In this document: in pieces, positions 26,274 to 30,734 of the stretch
How the letters are laid out: every line of letters starts with the position of its first letter
Position numbering within the stretch: the first letter of the stretch is position 1
Origin: Thermodesulfobacteriota bacterium
GTDB taxonomy: Bacteria; Desulfobacterota; Deferrisomatia; Deferrisomatales; JACRMM01
DNA: 33,849 bases
Direction of reading: 5' to 3'
NCBI GenBank assembly: GCA_040756475.1
Contig: JBFLZB010000010.1
Coordinates: 14,215-48,063 of the forward strand
Notes under the pieces: generated by a model
Told to the model about the DNA's origin: nothing
The model's input: only the letters and a program-made list of their open reading frames with translations
The model's database searches: none
Made by a program: the position numbers and the translations under genes

Positions 26274-27554
26274 ATGGCAGCGCCCCGGGGCGCGTTGGTG
26301 CTCATGGGCTCGGGCGAGCTCACGGCCACCATGGTCGAGGTCCACAAGGAGCTCCTGGGACGACTCGGGCCCGGGGCCCGGGCCGTGTTCCTGGACACTC
26401 CGGCCGGCTTCCAGCTCAACGCGGACCAGATCTCGGAGCGGGCGGTGGCCTACTTCCGGGAACGGGTCGGCCGCGGTCTGGAAGTGGCCTCCCTCAAGTC
26501 TGCGGCGGCGGCGAGGGCCTACGAGGGGGAGGTAGCCCTGGCCACCCTGCGCCGGGCGGACTACATCTTCGTGGGCCCCGGCAGCCCCACCTATGCCCTG
26601 CGCCAGTGGAAGGAAACCTCCGTGCCCGCGATCTTTGCCGAACGCGTCGAGGAGGGGGCGGTGCTGGCGGCGGCGAGCGCGGCGGCCTTGACCCTGGGGC
26701 GCTTCACCCTGCCGGTGTACGAGATCTACAAGGTGGGGGAGGAGCCCCGGTGGGCCGAGGGACTCGACCTCCTGGGGAAGTTCGGCCTTCCCGTGGCGGT
26801 GGTTCCCCACTGGAACAACGCGGAGGGCGGCACCCACGACACGCGCTTCTGCTACGCGGGGGAGATCCGCTTCCGGGCGCTCCAGGCCCTGCTGCCCGAG
26901 GACGTCGCGGTGCTGGGGATCGACGAGCACACGGCTTGCGTGCTCGATGTGGCCCGGGGAGTTGCGGAGGTCCGGGGGATCGGGCGGGTCACGGTGCGCC
27001 GGGGCGGCGGGGAGAGCACCTTCGCAAAAGGGGAGCGCTTCCGCCTGTCGCTCCTCGGAGGCCCGGCCCTCGCCCAAGGGGGTGAGGAGGGACGTTCCGG
27101 GCTTCCGAGTCCCTCGGAGGCAGCGCTTCGCGAGGAGGCATCGGGGGAGGAGGGCCTGGGGGGGGAAATCCGCCGGGCCGAGGCCGCCTTCGAGGCGGCC
27201 CTCGGCCGGGGCGACCCGGAGGCGGCCGCGGGAGCGCTCCTGGATCTGGATCACCTGCTCTGGGCCGCGCAGCGCAGGCCGGGGGACGAGGGCGATCTGG
27301 GGCAGGGGCGGGAGGCCTTTCGGGAGATGCTCGCGCTCCTGGGCCACGCCCACGGGGGAGCACAGCCCGAGACGGCGCCGTCCGCTCCGCTCGTGGAGGC
27401 TTTGGTGGCCCTGCGGGACGAGTGGCGCGAGGAGGGCAAGTGGACCGAGGCCGACGCGCTCCGGGATCGGCTGCGCGCGGCCGGCATCCTCGTGGAAGAC
27501 ACGCCGGCGGGGGCGCGCTGGCGCCCCCTTCCCGGCCCCCGTGACCCGAGCTGA
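26274..27554 (+). CDS. S51/cyanophycinase-like protein fused to a CysS-type C-terminal segment
   Basis: A 426-aa protein in two parts. Residues 1-~270 resemble the type 1 glutamine amidotransferase-like S51 peptidase fold (cyanophycinase/PepE relatives): MGSGELTATM, VFLDTPAGFQLNADQ, FVGPGSPTYALRQW, a candidate nucleophile Ser in LAAASAAAL (canonical GTSAGA has glycines here), and VPHWNNAEGGTHDTR. After a linker, the final ~50 residues, LVALRDEWREEGKWTEADALRDRLRAAGI followed by VEDTPAGARWR, match the extreme C-terminus of bacterial cysteinyl-tRNA synthetases. No HIGH or KMSKS catalytic domain is present. The enzymatic role is unknown; altered residues around the Ser make peptidase activity uncertain. 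GAGGAG lies 8 nt before the ATG. First gene of a four-gene plus-strand group. Confidence 0.82.
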   Translation: MAAPRGALVLMGSGELTATMVEVHKELLGRLGPGARAVFLDTPAGFQLNADQISERAVAYFRERVGRGLEVASLKSAAAARAYEGEVALATLRRADYIFVGPGSPTYALRQWKETSVPAIFAERVEEGAVLAAASAAALTLGRFTLPVYEIYKVGEEPRWAEGLDLLGKFGLPVAVVPHWNNAEGGTHDTRFCYAGEIRFRALQALLPEDVAVLGIDEHTACVLDVARGVAEVRGIGRVTVRRGGGESTFAKGERFRLSLLGGPALAQGGEEGRSGLPSPSEAALREEASGEEGLGGEIRRAEAAFEAALGRGDPEAAAGALLDLDHLLWAAQRRPGDEGDLGQGREAFREMLALLGHAHGGAQPETAPSAPLVEALVALRDEWREEGKWTEADALRDRLRAAGILVEDTPAGARWRPLPGPRDPS

Positions 27555-27578
27555 ACATCCGTGGGGCGTAGGGGAGCC

Positions 27579-28586
27579 ATGGAGACCAACGCCGAAGGAG
27601 CCGAGGACTGCGCCGTCGCCCCAGTGACCTTGCCGGAGCTGGCGGAGCTCTGGCGCGGCGGCGGGCTCGACTGGGACTGTCTCTTCGTCCTGCCCCCCTG
27701 GCTCGAGGCATGGTCCGAGACCCTCGGGAGGGGCGAGACGCCGGTCCTGCGGGCGGTGCGGCAGGGGGGACGGCTCCTGGGGGTCGCCCCCCTGCGCCGC
27801 CGGGGCGACAGGGCCTCGTTCCTGGGCAGCCCCGACGTGTGCGACTACCAGGATTTCGTCCTGGCCCGGGATGGCCCGACGGCGGCCCCGGCCTTCTTCC
27901 GGGCGCTCCTGGGGCACCTCGAAGGGCTCGGGGTGCGGCAACTGGACCTGGGGGCGCTGCGCCCGGATGCTGCGGCGCGCCGGTTCCTTCCGGACGCGGC
28001 CGAGGCGGCGGGGTGGGAGGTCGCTTGGGCGCCGGACGGGGTCGCGGTGGAGCTCGACCTTCCCGCGACCTGGGAGGCGTTCCTTGCCCGCCTCGACAAG
28101 AAGGAGCGCCACGAGGTGCGCCGCAAGCTGCGGCGGCTCGAACGGACGGGCCAGGTGCGCTATCGCCGCGCAGCACCTGGGGAGGCGGCCGGGGAGGGGG
28201 GCGAGCGCTTCCTGCGGTTCTTTGCCGGGTACCGGGAGGACAAGGCGTCGTTCCTCACCCCGGGGCGGGAGGCCTTCTTCCGGCGCCTCCTGGCGGCCAC
28301 GGCCCGGGAAGGGCTCGCCGAGCTGGCCTTTCTCGAGGTCGGTGGAGAGCCGGTGGCGGGGGTCCTGTGCTTCTCCTACCGGGACGCCACCTACCTGTAC
28401 AACAACGGATACGATCCGTCCTGGGAGCACCTGAGCGTGGGGTTTGCGAGCAAGGTGTGGAGCATTCGGGAGAGCATCGGCCGTGGGGCGCGCCGCTACG
28501 ACCTCCTCAAGGGCGACGAGGCGTACAAGCTGCGCCTCGGCGGCCGGCGGGTCCCCCTGGTGCGCTGCCTCCTGACGCGGCCCTGA
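27579..28586 (+). CDS. BioF2-like GNAT-family acyltransferase
   Basis: A 335-aa protein of the BioF2-like/FemAB-related GNAT superfamily (also annotated as CelD-like). Hallmarks are an N-terminal domain with the aromatic PPWLEAW and a C-terminal domain with WEAFLARLDKKERHEVRRKLRRLE, GEPVAGVLCFSYRDATYLYNNGYDP, and RRYDLLKGDEAYKLRLG near the end. Members transfer acyl or aminoacyl groups to small molecules, polysaccharides or peptidoglycan precursors; the acceptor here is unknown. ATG 27579 follows GGGGAG; an upstream in-frame GTG at 27561 would add six residues. Only 24 nt separate it from the S51-like gene. Confidence 0.87.
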   Translation: METNAEGAEDCAVAPVTLPELAELWRGGGLDWDCLFVLPPWLEAWSETLGRGETPVLRAVRQGGRLLGVAPLRRRGDRASFLGSPDVCDYQDFVLARDGPTAAPAFFRALLGHLEGLGVRQLDLGALRPDAAARRFLPDAAEAAGWEVAWAPDGVAVELDLPATWEAFLARLDKKERHEVRRKLRRLERTGQVRYRRAAPGEAAGEGGERFLRFFAGYREDKASFLTPGREAFFRRLLAATAREGLAELAFLEVGGEPVAGVLCFSYRDATYLYNNGYDPSWEHLSVGFASKVWSIRESIGRGARRYDLLKGDEAYKLRLGGRRVPLVRCLLTRP

Positions 28587-28630
28587 GGCCGGAGCAGGGA
28601 CGGCGAAGGGGAGCCTTCCCCCCGCCCCTC

Positions 28631-28685
28631 GAAATCGGTATCGGTATCGGGGTCGATACCGATACCGATAGCGATAGCGATTTCC
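28631..28685. repeat. Hexamer tandem repeats arranged as an inverted repeat
   Basis: ATCGGT-type hexamers run toward a GGGT centre and then reappear as their complement (CGATAC then CGATAG units). The arms 28636-28649 and 28654-28667 pair perfectly over 14 bp with a 4-nt loop; alternatively GAAATCG (28631-28637) pairs with CGATTTC (28678-28684). It lies 45 nt behind the GNAT stop codon and has no U tract. Confidence 0.75.
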
Positions 28686-28764
28686 ATCAGAACCCTGTGG
28701 CGCTCTGCCGGCTGGGTTCACCCGGGCCAGCCGGGAAGATGTTCCTTCTCCCGAGACATGACGC

Positions 28765-30036
28765 ATGAAGCCCACCCCCCTGCGCATCGCCATGCTGAGC
28801 CTTCACTCCAGCCCCTTCGGGGAGCTCGGGACCCGCGACACCGGGGGCATGAGCGTGTATGTGCGCGAGCTCGCGGGGGAGCTGGGTCGCCTCGGTCACC
28901 GGGTGGACGTCTTCACCCGTCGGCCCGTTCCGCACGCGCCGCGGGTGCAGCCCATGGGGCCCAACGTGCGCCTGGTCCACCTGGACGGAGGCGAGGGGGT
29001 GCACGACGGCAAGCTCGGCCTCTACCCGGGCCTGTCGCGCTTCCTGGCGTCGCTGGAGTCCTTCCGGGGGGGGGAGGGGGGGCGGTACGACCTGGTGCAC
29101 AGCCATTACTGGCTCTCGGGGTGCCTGGGGGCCGGGGCGGCGGGCGGCTGGGGGGTGCCCCACGTGGTCATGTTCCATACCTGGGGCGCCGCCAAGAACC
29201 GCGCGTCGTGCGGCGAGAACGAGCCGGCCCTGCGCCTGGATGCGGAACGGGAGCTCGCAAGGACCTGCGACCGGGTGGTGGCGCCCACCGCTCGGGAGCG
29301 CGACGAGCTCCTGCGCACCGGGGTCGCCCCGCCGGATCGGGTGACGGTCATTCCGTGCGGGGTGGACCTGGAGCGGTTCCGACCGCTCGACCGGGCCGAG
29401 AGCCGCCGGTGCCTGGGACTCGAGCGGGGCGGGCCGATTCTCCTCTACGTGGGGAGGTTTGTGCCGGTAAAGGGGGCGGACCGCCTCCTGGAGGCCCTCG
29501 CACACCTCGCGCCGCGCCCTGATCTGCGCCTCGTGCTGGTGGGGGGCGACGGCCTCGCGTCCCCCACGGCCCGCGCCCTCGAAGAGCGGGCGCGGGCCCT
29601 GGGGCTCGCCGGGAGCATAGGGTTTCGGGGGCGAGTGGACCAGGAGGAGATGCCCTCCTACTACGCCGCGGCCGACCTCTTGGTGGTCCCTTCCCACTAC
29701 GAGAGCTTCGGGCTCGCAACCCTGGAGGCCCTGGCCTGCGGAACCCCCGTGGCTTCGACCCGGGTGGGGGCGGCGCAGGACCTGCTGGATCCCGCGATCA
29801 ACGGCGTCCTCCTCGACCCGGAGCCCGCGGCCCTGGCCCGGGGGCTCGACGCCGCCTTGGGCCGAGGGCTCTCCGGTGCCTGGCCGCGGGCCGGGGTTCG
29901 GGCCTCGGTGGCGGCCTACGGCTGGCCGCGGGTGGCAGAGGCGGTGCTGGCGATGTACCGGGATGTCCTGTCCGGGGCCGGGGCGGAAGACAGGGCTTCC
30001 AAAGCGACGAGCGGCGCACACGCCGCGGGAGGGTAG
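28765..30036 (+). CDS. GT4-family glycosyltransferase, MshA-like
   Basis: A 423-aa retaining GT-B glycosyltransferase. The N-terminal half (RIAMLSLHSSPFGELGTRDTGG, YVRELAGELGRLGHRVDVFTR, YDLVHSHYWLSG, FHTWGAAKN) resembles MshA, which makes GlcNAc-inositol phosphate in mycothiol synthesis, more than BshA. The C-terminal half has the nucleotide-sugar site with LLYVGRFVPVKG and PSHYESFGLATLEALACGTPV, including the family E-x7-E. Residues that bind inositol phosphate in MshA (Lys, Tyr, Thr, Arg in these blocks) appear to have counterparts, judged from memory. Sucrose-phosphate-synthase-like enzymes share the same pattern, so the acceptor is open. Two nucleotides separate it from the PIG-L gene. 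Confidence 0.9.
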   Translation: MKPTPLRIAMLSLHSSPFGELGTRDTGGMSVYVRELAGELGRLGHRVDVFTRRPVPHAPRVQPMGPNVRLVHLDGGEGVHDGKLGLYPGLSRFLASLESFRGGEGGRYDLVHSHYWLSGCLGAGAAGGWGVPHVVMFHTWGAAKNRASCGENEPALRLDAERELARTCDRVVAPTARERDELLRTGVAPPDRVTVIPCGVDLERFRPLDRAESRRCLGLERGGPILLYVGRFVPVKGADRLLEALAHLAPRPDLRLVLVGGDGLASPTARALEERARALGLAGSIGFRGRVDQEEMPSYYAAADLLVVPSHYESFGLATLEALACGTPVASTRVGAAQDLLDPAINGVLLDPEPAALARGLDAALGRGLSGAWPRAGVRASVAAYGWPRVAEAVLAMYRDVLSGAGAEDRASKATSGAHAAGG

Positions 30037-30038
30037 GG

Positions 30039-30734
30039 ATGAAGCCGCTCTGCGACGCGCTGGTCATTGCCGCCCACCCGGACGACGCCGAGTTCGGCGT
30101 GGCCGGCACCGTGGCGGGCTGGACGGGGGAGGGCAAGCGGGTCGTCTACGTGGTGTGCACCGACGGGGAGAAGGGCACCACCGACCGGCGGGTCCGCCCC
30201 GAAGACCTGGCCCGGACCCGGCGAGACGAGCAGCGGGCCGCCGCGGCGGTGCTCGGAGTCGCGGAGGTGGTCTTCCTGGGCTATCCCGACCAGGGCCTGG
30301 AAGACACCCCTGAGTTTCGTAAGCGCCTGGTACGCGAGCTTCGCACCCACCGCCCGGCCATCGTGGCCACCTCGGACCCCTACCGGCGCTACATCTGGCA
30401 CCGGGACCACCGGATCGTGGGCCAGGTGGTCCTCGACGCGGTCTTCCCCTTCGCCCGGGACCACCTGGCCTACCCGGACCTCCTGGCCGACGGGTTGGAG
30501 CCCCACAAGGTCCAGGAGATCTGGTTCTTCGGCTCCGAGGACCCCAACCACCGGGTCGACCTGGCCCAGACCTTCGCGCGCAAGCTCGAGGCCCTGCGCT
30601 GCCATGAGAGCCAGGTGCGGGAGCTCAACCTCCCGGACCTGGAAGCGTGGCTGCGGCAGTGGTGCCGGGGCATGGCCGGCGGCTCGGAGTTCGAGCTCGC
30701 CGAGGCCTTCCACCGGGTGGTGGCGCCCCGGTAG
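30039..30734 (+). CDS. PIG-L (LmbE/MshB/BshB-like) deacetylase
   Basis: A 231-aa zinc-dependent N-deacetylase of the PIG-L family, cytoplasmic. The zinc-binding motif AHPDDAEFG is at ~11-19; the second histidine region IWHRDHRIVGQVV is at ~118-130. Relatives deacetylate GlcNAc-inositol (MshB), GlcNAc-malate (BshB) or other GlcNAc conjugates. The immediate coupling to a GT4 glycosyltransferase argues that it acts on that enzyme's product. The length fits the BshB-type short form better than MshB (about 300 aa). ATG 30039 follows GGGAGGGTAGGG. It ends 12 nt from the convergent ychF-like gene. Confidence 0.92.
   Translation: MKPLCDALVIAAHPDDAEFGVAGTVAGWTGEGKRVVYVVCTDGEKGTTDRRVRPEDLARTRRDEQRAAAAVLGVAEVVFLGYPDQGLEDTPEFRKRLVRELRTHRPAIVATSDPYRRYIWHRDHRIVGQVVLDAVFPFARDHLAYPDLLADGLEPHKVQEIWFFGSEDPNHRVDLAQTFARKLEALRCHESQVRELNLPDLEAWLRQWCRGMAGGSEFELAEAFHRVVAPR

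Follow-up and report, generated by a model that had tools for sequence, protein, structure and literature searches.

What would an operon produce that pairs a mycothiol-type glycosyltransferase with a sugar deacetylase and has neither an MshC nor a BshC ligase to go with them? The question is raised by four genes at 26274-30734 of a 33,849-nucleotide (nt) stretch of DNA, referred to as the window, from contig JBFLZB010000010.1 of a Thermodesulfobacteriota bacterium (assembly GCA_040756475.1, genome G000 in our sample). They encode an S51-type serine hydrolase fused to a C-terminal region of the cysteinyl-tRNA synthetase (CysRS) type, called S51-CysS_C here, a tandem-GNAT protein, an MshA-like family 4 glycosyltransferase (GT4) and a PIG-L/LmbE deacetylase. 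The original prediction, made from the sequence alone, had placed these four + strand genes in a thiol- or glycoconjugate-cofactor cluster; the open reading frames and the Pfam domains, all called over their gathering scores, confirm the four genes, and the core idea turns out to be largely right. We will argue, with some reserve, that the operon makes an aminoacylated glucosaminyl-inositol (GlcN-inositol), most likely cysteinyl-GlcN-inositol, a mycothiol-like thiol, and that a FemX-fold GNAT protein may stand in place of MshC.

The GlcN-inositol part is the best-supported step of this proposal, and we consider it quite probable. The GT4 protein (28765-30036, + strand, 423 residues), for which we propose transfer of N-acetylglucosamine (GlcNAc) to inositol 1-phosphate, carries the Glyco_transf_4 (113 bits) and Glycos_transf_1 (127 bits) domains. 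The MshA family TIGR03449 is by far its best match with 283.7 bits, compared to 118 bits for the next-best family and 84.4 bits for BshA (cut-off 273.7), while the equivalog cut-off of TIGR03449, 462.5 bits, is not reached. Lys78, Tyr110, Thr134 and Arg154 of MshA (3c4q numbering), which we take to be on the acceptor-phosphate side of the C. glutamicum MshA structure, are all kept in the window protein; among 83 orthologues, Tyr110 and Arg154 are found in all, Thr134 in 82, and position 78 is Lys in 68 and Arg in 9. A phylogeny against MshA, BshA and sucrose-phosphate synthases had been suggested as a check. In the FastTree phylogeny, the window clade lies apart from BshA; its sister is a mixed group that contains MshA, the sucrose-phosphate synthase of cyanobacteria and the GT4s linked to the GNAT in other families. 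The label MshA-like is thus upheld by the family score and the acceptor-side residues, but the tree does not put the enzyme within MshA.

The PIG-L/LmbE protein (30039-30734, + strand, 231 residues; PF02585, 115 bits) is a putative GlcNAc-inositol deacetylase. Its best NCBIfam family is BshB1 with 100.3 bits (cut-off 182.5), and the MshB family TIGR03445 gives 38.9 bits (cut-off 224); the HPDD and HxDH motifs are invariant in its orthologues. An inositol-phosphate synthase (Ino1) is encoded in the same genome, unlinked, on contig C163 (PF01658 over cut-off; TIGR03450 429 bits, below the equivalog cut-off), and in family f30 (L042) the Ino1 gene adjoins a diverged GT4-GNAT pair. Because of the deacetylase partner and Ino1, GlcNAc and inositol phosphate are favoured as the GT4 substrates. 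The predicted glycosylation-deacetylation pair is well supported, with both enzymes over their Pfam cut-offs and the synthase co-occurring and sometimes adjacent. In addition, a histidine-phosphatase gene lies beside Ino1 and PIG-L at L082 (7871-8527 and 8579-9682, both on the - strand), and several loci are alike.

We now consider the GNAT protein (27561-28586, + strand, 341 residues; Acetyltransf_6, PF13480, 102 bits), whose reading frame starts with GTG and has an in-frame ATG at 27579. An AlphaFold2 model built from 46 sequences has a predicted local distance difference test score (pLDDT) of 95.4. The structure matches from Foldseek and VIA-align are ranked lists of PDB entries, from which the absence of a family does not exclude it; the top matches are FemX, Sbb17/Sba18, FemA, MprF and A-PGS/L-PGS, with VIA-align Z scores of 21.4 for FemX and FemA, 20-21 for Sbb17/Sba18 and 17-18 for MprF (21.4-16.7 for the overall set). 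With FemX 6snr the root-mean-square deviation (rmsd) is 4.0 over 295 residues, in keeping with a tandem-GNAT FemX fold. MshD structures follow at Z 14.0 and 12.8, below the FemX-type enzymes, and no MshD family is matched by profile. The acyl-CoA motif (R/Q)xxGx(G/A) is not present in the GNAT alignment, where the consensus at the site is LSVGLLSK. What the family does conserve is a helix in which 7-10 of 17 residues are basic, together with a Tyr-Lys pair near the C-terminus that hardly varies. FemX binds tRNA with a basic helix and has one reactive lysine, and Orf11, a FemX-fold enzyme of BD-12 biosynthesis, aminoacylates the amino sugar streptothrisamine from Gly-tRNA (PMC12945691). The conserved GNAT lysine, Lys323 in the 341-residue frame, may correspond to Lys305 of FemX. 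Sbb17/Sba18 are likewise aminoacyl-tRNA-dependent, with structures solved with streptothrisamine. Being closest in predicted fold to the aminoacyl-tRNA-dependent FemX-type enzymes, the protein fits the role of the missing ligase better than that of an acetyltransferase. The original prediction had assigned it to another GNAT subfamily than MshD; it does not look MshD-like, and an acetyltransferase role is not supported.

The first gene encodes S51-CysS_C (26274-27554, + strand, 426 residues), which contains Peptidase_S51 (PF03575, 35.6 bits, cut-off 23.9) and, at residues 374-417, CysS_C (PF23493, 32.4 bits, cut-off 23). In the AlphaFold2 model (pLDDT 83.7), the first 260 residues match PepE and cyanophycinase with Z 20-26, and the catalytic Ser135 as well as His179, His188 and Glu218 are invariant in 46 homologues. 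Residues 296-419 align to residues 332-461 of E. coli CysRS in the tRNA complex 1u0b (chain B), that is, the helical bundle and the anticodon-binding domain; the CysRS-like tail at residues 296-417 corresponds to 27159-27524 (+ strand). The 1u0b match has Z 8.0 over 116 aligned residues with an rmsd of 10.9, so that the two superpose only in parts; for another CysRS structure, 52 residues of the last domain are matched at 2.2 Å. A CysS C-terminal segment had been predicted at the end of this protein, which is correct, although the CysRS-like part is larger than was stated. In E. coli CysRS, Arg427, Trp432 and Asp436 contact the anticodon nucleotide G34 of tRNA-Cys (PMC12684709). Their counterparts by pairwise alignment are Arg385, Trp390 and Asp394, conserved in 45, 41 (the rest being aromatic) and 46 of the 46 homologues, respectively. 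This is good evidence that the tail would bind tRNA-Cys, and it concerns binding rather than reaction. The literature that we searched, covered in part, yielded neither a report of an S51-CysRS C-terminal fusion nor a description of this operon.

It is important to ask next whether a conventional ligase is present after all. In the source genome, the MshC profile gives nothing over its cut-off, its matches being the normal CysRS and a paralogue that has diverged from it; the MshC motif is not found, and BshC is absent, in line with the predicted lack of both catalytic domains. The suggested search of the genome for a second CysS paralogue or BshC did reveal the former. This CysRS-like protein, without a C-terminal domain, is encoded on contig C56 next to a gapA-like gene (L141:4893-6428, - strand) and has lost one zinc-site cysteine (AWNVQD vs GWHIEC in the normal CysRS); with its broken zinc site and other context, it was rejected as a hidden MshC. 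A second CysRS-like match occurs in many genomes of the phylum (G028, G031, G048, G039, G057, G020 and others) in open frames of ca 740-835 residues, suggesting a CysRS-like domain inside a larger protein. Across our sample of 228 genomes of the phylum, BshC was found once, in a genome without this GT4 (G029, contig C41:349825-352625, L184), where it adjoins a likely BshA GT4 as a bacillithiol-type pair. With no BshC and a weak BshA score, a bacillithiol pathway was discarded for the window.

The motif G-I-T-P-Y-D-x-T-H-L-G-H, which separates MshC from the CysRS of these genomes, was sought in all 228 of them and is convincing only in G036 and, with one mismatch, in G142; the other six matches are CysRS of the GITAYD type. 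In G036, the MshC-like protein VCGITPYDVTHLGHA has no CysS_C tail and is encoded between a metallo-beta-lactamase and the GT4, and no GNAT of this family was found in that genome. The same slot is held by the GNAT in seven other sample genomes (L161, L165, L166, L167, L169, L171 and L178). That the MshC-like protein takes the place of the GNAT in G036 is suggestive, not proof. The second Desulfobacterota MshC-like protein, in G142 (L190:4687-5940), is followed directly by an OsmC/Ohr-like gene.

The gene neighbourhood was examined by scanning the S51-CysS_C alignment against one genome per species, which gave 261 relatives, 80 of which are covered by the locus counts. These 80 loci belong mainly to Desulfobacterota (Desulfobacterales, Syntrophobacteria and others), with several Nitrospirota and two named Bacillota or Syntrophomonadaceae. 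The one-strand order S51-GNAT-GT4-PIG-L is found in 41 of them, many of the remaining loci stopping at a contig edge, and it recurs in relatives of the source genome, from which we conclude that the grouping goes beyond chance. The conserved neighbourhood that had been anticipated thus extends over Desulfobacterota and Nitrospirota, and the cultured species Desulfacinum infernum DSM 9756 (L120) has all four genes in order. When the neighbours are clustered, Desulfobacterales turn out to have two insertions between the S51 and GNAT genes, a ThuA-Gfo/Idh fusion (37 loci) and a Gfo/Idh dehydrogenase (33 loci). The other families are inositol-phosphate synthases of two types (9 + 4 = 13 loci), a second S51 protein (24), a glyoxalase-II-like metallo-beta-lactamase (12), a histidine phosphatase (13) and a glutaredoxin-disulfide reductase fusion (6). 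The two Gfo/Idh proteins resemble inositol or glycoside dehydrogenases (ca 35 loci, e.g. L070) and perhaps modify or recycle the inositol part.

The genes also occur together beyond the operon. Taking E ≤ 1e-60 as the threshold, 33 of the 228 genomes are GT4-positive and 195 are not. The GNAT is present in 31 of the 33 vs 16 of the 195 (Fisher P 4e-24), and S51-CysS_C in 25 vs 5 (P 1e-21), both values ignoring shared ancestry; these partners of the GT4 are often unlinked, frequently on another contig. A PIG-L relative (E ≤ 1e-30) and an inositol-phosphate synthase (25 via TIGR03450 and 6 via PF07994) are each found in 31 of the 33. Co-occurrence of the glutaredoxin reductase was dropped as uninformative, as ordinary thioredoxin reductases match the search in 171 of the 228 genomes.

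From the gene content and order, their conservation and co-occurrence, the predicted folds and the conserved residues, the following pathway can be proposed, in which the substrates, the cysteine, the tRNA step and the role of S51-CysS_C are inferred. The GT4 would join GlcNAc to inositol 1-phosphate supplied by the unlinked synthase, and a phosphatase would then remove the phosphate; the histidine phosphatase near Ino1 in Desulfobacterales is perhaps the enzyme for this MshA2-type step. Deacetylation by the PIG-L enzyme would give GlcN-inositol, onto whose free amine the GNAT would move the amino acid of an aminoacyl-tRNA, cysteine being the most likely one. S51-CysS_C would act as an accessory protein, with its copy of the CysRS anticodon domain binding tRNA-Cys; its hydrolase domain may remove Cys-tRNA that is mischarged or in excess, hand Cys-tRNA on, or hydrolyse the product or conjugates of it. 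We consider a thiol product likely; it is favoured because of the MshC-like protein in G036, the anticodon residues of the CysRS tail, the glyoxalase-II-like neighbours and the glutaredoxin-disulfide reductase of six loci. The tRNA-dependent cysteine step is less certain, with a chance that we put slightly short of even; it is the most economical reading of the GNAT fold, the locus swap in G036 and the CysRS tail taken together.

Alternatively, the pathway could be mycothiol-like, the GNAT acting in the role of MshD as the N-acetyltransferase of the last step and the cysteine step being carried out by CysRS itself, a CysRS paralogue or another ligase. MshD, too, has two GNAT domains in tandem and is among the fold matches, and the tail-less C56 protein is at hand in the source genome. 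The fold is, however, clearly nearer the tRNA-dependent enzymes (Z 17-21), the CoA motif is absent, and G036, with MshC and without the GNAT, would then be missing the MshD-type step. The C56 protein has moreover lost a zinc-site cysteine and stands beside a gapA-like gene, while G004, G010, G044, G045, G049 and G051 have only the normal CysRS above 200 bits. We therefore regard this explanation as unlikely.

The product could also be aminoacylated with another amino acid and not be a thiol at all, either as a GlcN-inositol or as a glucosaminyl-inositol lipid, serving the envelope or as an osmolyte. PIG-L and GT4 enzymes act also on inositol lipids. In the same vein, FemX-fold enzymes use Ala, Gly, Ser or Leu (PMC12945691). 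The anticodon-contact residues of the CysRS tail, the MshC-like ligase that occupies this place in G036 and the glyoxalase-II-like and glutaredoxin-reductase neighbours all speak for cysteine instead, and make such a product improbable. Acetyltransf_6 and GT4 proteins are, on the other hand, frequent in exopolysaccharide clusters, as are deacetylases in polysaccharide or glycan-decoration genes, and weaker GNAT matches occur in eight genomes that lack this GT4. A role of that kind appears very unlikely, as the four-gene group is preserved in both Desulfobacterota and Nitrospirota, and as the conserved neighbour families include no flippase, polymerase or priming enzyme, but instead Ino1, metallo-beta-lactamase, S51 and MshC.

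Several observations also weigh against our own proposal of a tRNA-dependent cysteinyl transfer to GlcN-inositol. MshA and sucrose-phosphate synthase are not resolved from each other in the GT4 tree, Ino1 also occurs in many genomes of the phylum that lack this GT4 (78 of the 195, by TIGR03450 alone), and the co-occurrence P values take no account of shared ancestry. The GNAT has no FemX relative by sequence profile (Pfam FemAB_like 18.4 bits, cut-off 27; none in a PDB profile search). A FemX-type fold is by itself no proof that tRNA is used, and the Acetyltransf_6 family, which includes many uncharacterised proteins, may share this fold in general. G142 has the MshC-like protein, the GNAT and S51-CysS_C together, which rules out strict mutual exclusion of MshC and GNAT and leaves the exchange resting on one genome. 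Finally, S51-CysS_C is absent from 8 of the 33 GT4 genomes and present alongside MshC in G036; it is thus not obligatory for the ligation, and its candidacy as the sole replacement for MshC is weakened.

Compared to known systems, the operon is most like mycothiol synthesis (Ino1, MshA, MshA2, MshB, MshC, MshD), with which it shares the MshA-like GT4, PIG-L and inositol-phosphate synthase; one relative also encodes an MshC-like ligase next to its GT4. It differs in the absence of MshC, in the FemX-fold GNAT, in the extra S51-CysS_C and in its hosts, Desulfobacterota and Nitrospirota instead of Actinobacteria. We describe it as working like mycothiol synthesis but do not file it as a member, because the MshA, MshB and Ino1 equivalog cut-offs were tested and its scores lie under them. 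Bacillithiol synthesis (BshA, BshB, BshC) has the same GT4 and PIG-L logic, and the PIG-L enzyme scores best with BshB1, but the GT4 is far from BshA and BshC is all but missing from the sample. The FemX-fold amino-sugar transferases, BD-12 Orf11 and Sbb17/Sba18, resemble the GNAT in fold, basic helix, C-terminal Tyr-Lys and proposed amino-sugar acceptor, whereas there is no sequence-level match and the context of the operon is cofactor-like. S51-CysS_C shares the fold and the conserved Ser and His of Peptidase S51 (PepE, cyanophycinase), unlike which it is fused to the CysRS C-terminal region.

As to the layout of the locus, the intergenic gaps are 6 nt (S51-GNAT), 178 nt (GNAT-GT4) and 2 nt (GT4-PIG-L). 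The strong promoter of the original prediction was not recovered: a scan for the sigma-70 consensus gave no promoter, a TTGACA lying ahead of the first gene without a fitting -10 element. The GNAT-GT4 gap contains an imperfect inverted repeat of GATACC-like units (28629-28684), with 25-nt arms that are 84% complementary and 4 nt apart; this palindrome accounts for four overlapping matches in the gap and none elsewhere in the window.

For most sulfate-reducing bacteria and their relatives, it is to our knowledge not settled which small thiol is the main one. It is conceivable, though rather doubtful at this stage, that a widespread tRNA-dependent thiol pathway exists in anaerobic Desulfobacterota and Nitrospirota, in which a FemX-fold enzyme uses Cys-tRNA-Cys, helped by a hydrolase with an anticodon domain, and GlcN-inositol is the acceptor. 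If true, the operon would give concrete genes for the small thiol of relatives of the sulfate-reducing bacteria, and mycothiol-like chemistry would reach beyond Actinobacteria. It would also mean that the cysteine of a redox cofactor can come from tRNA instead of from activation by a dedicated ligase.

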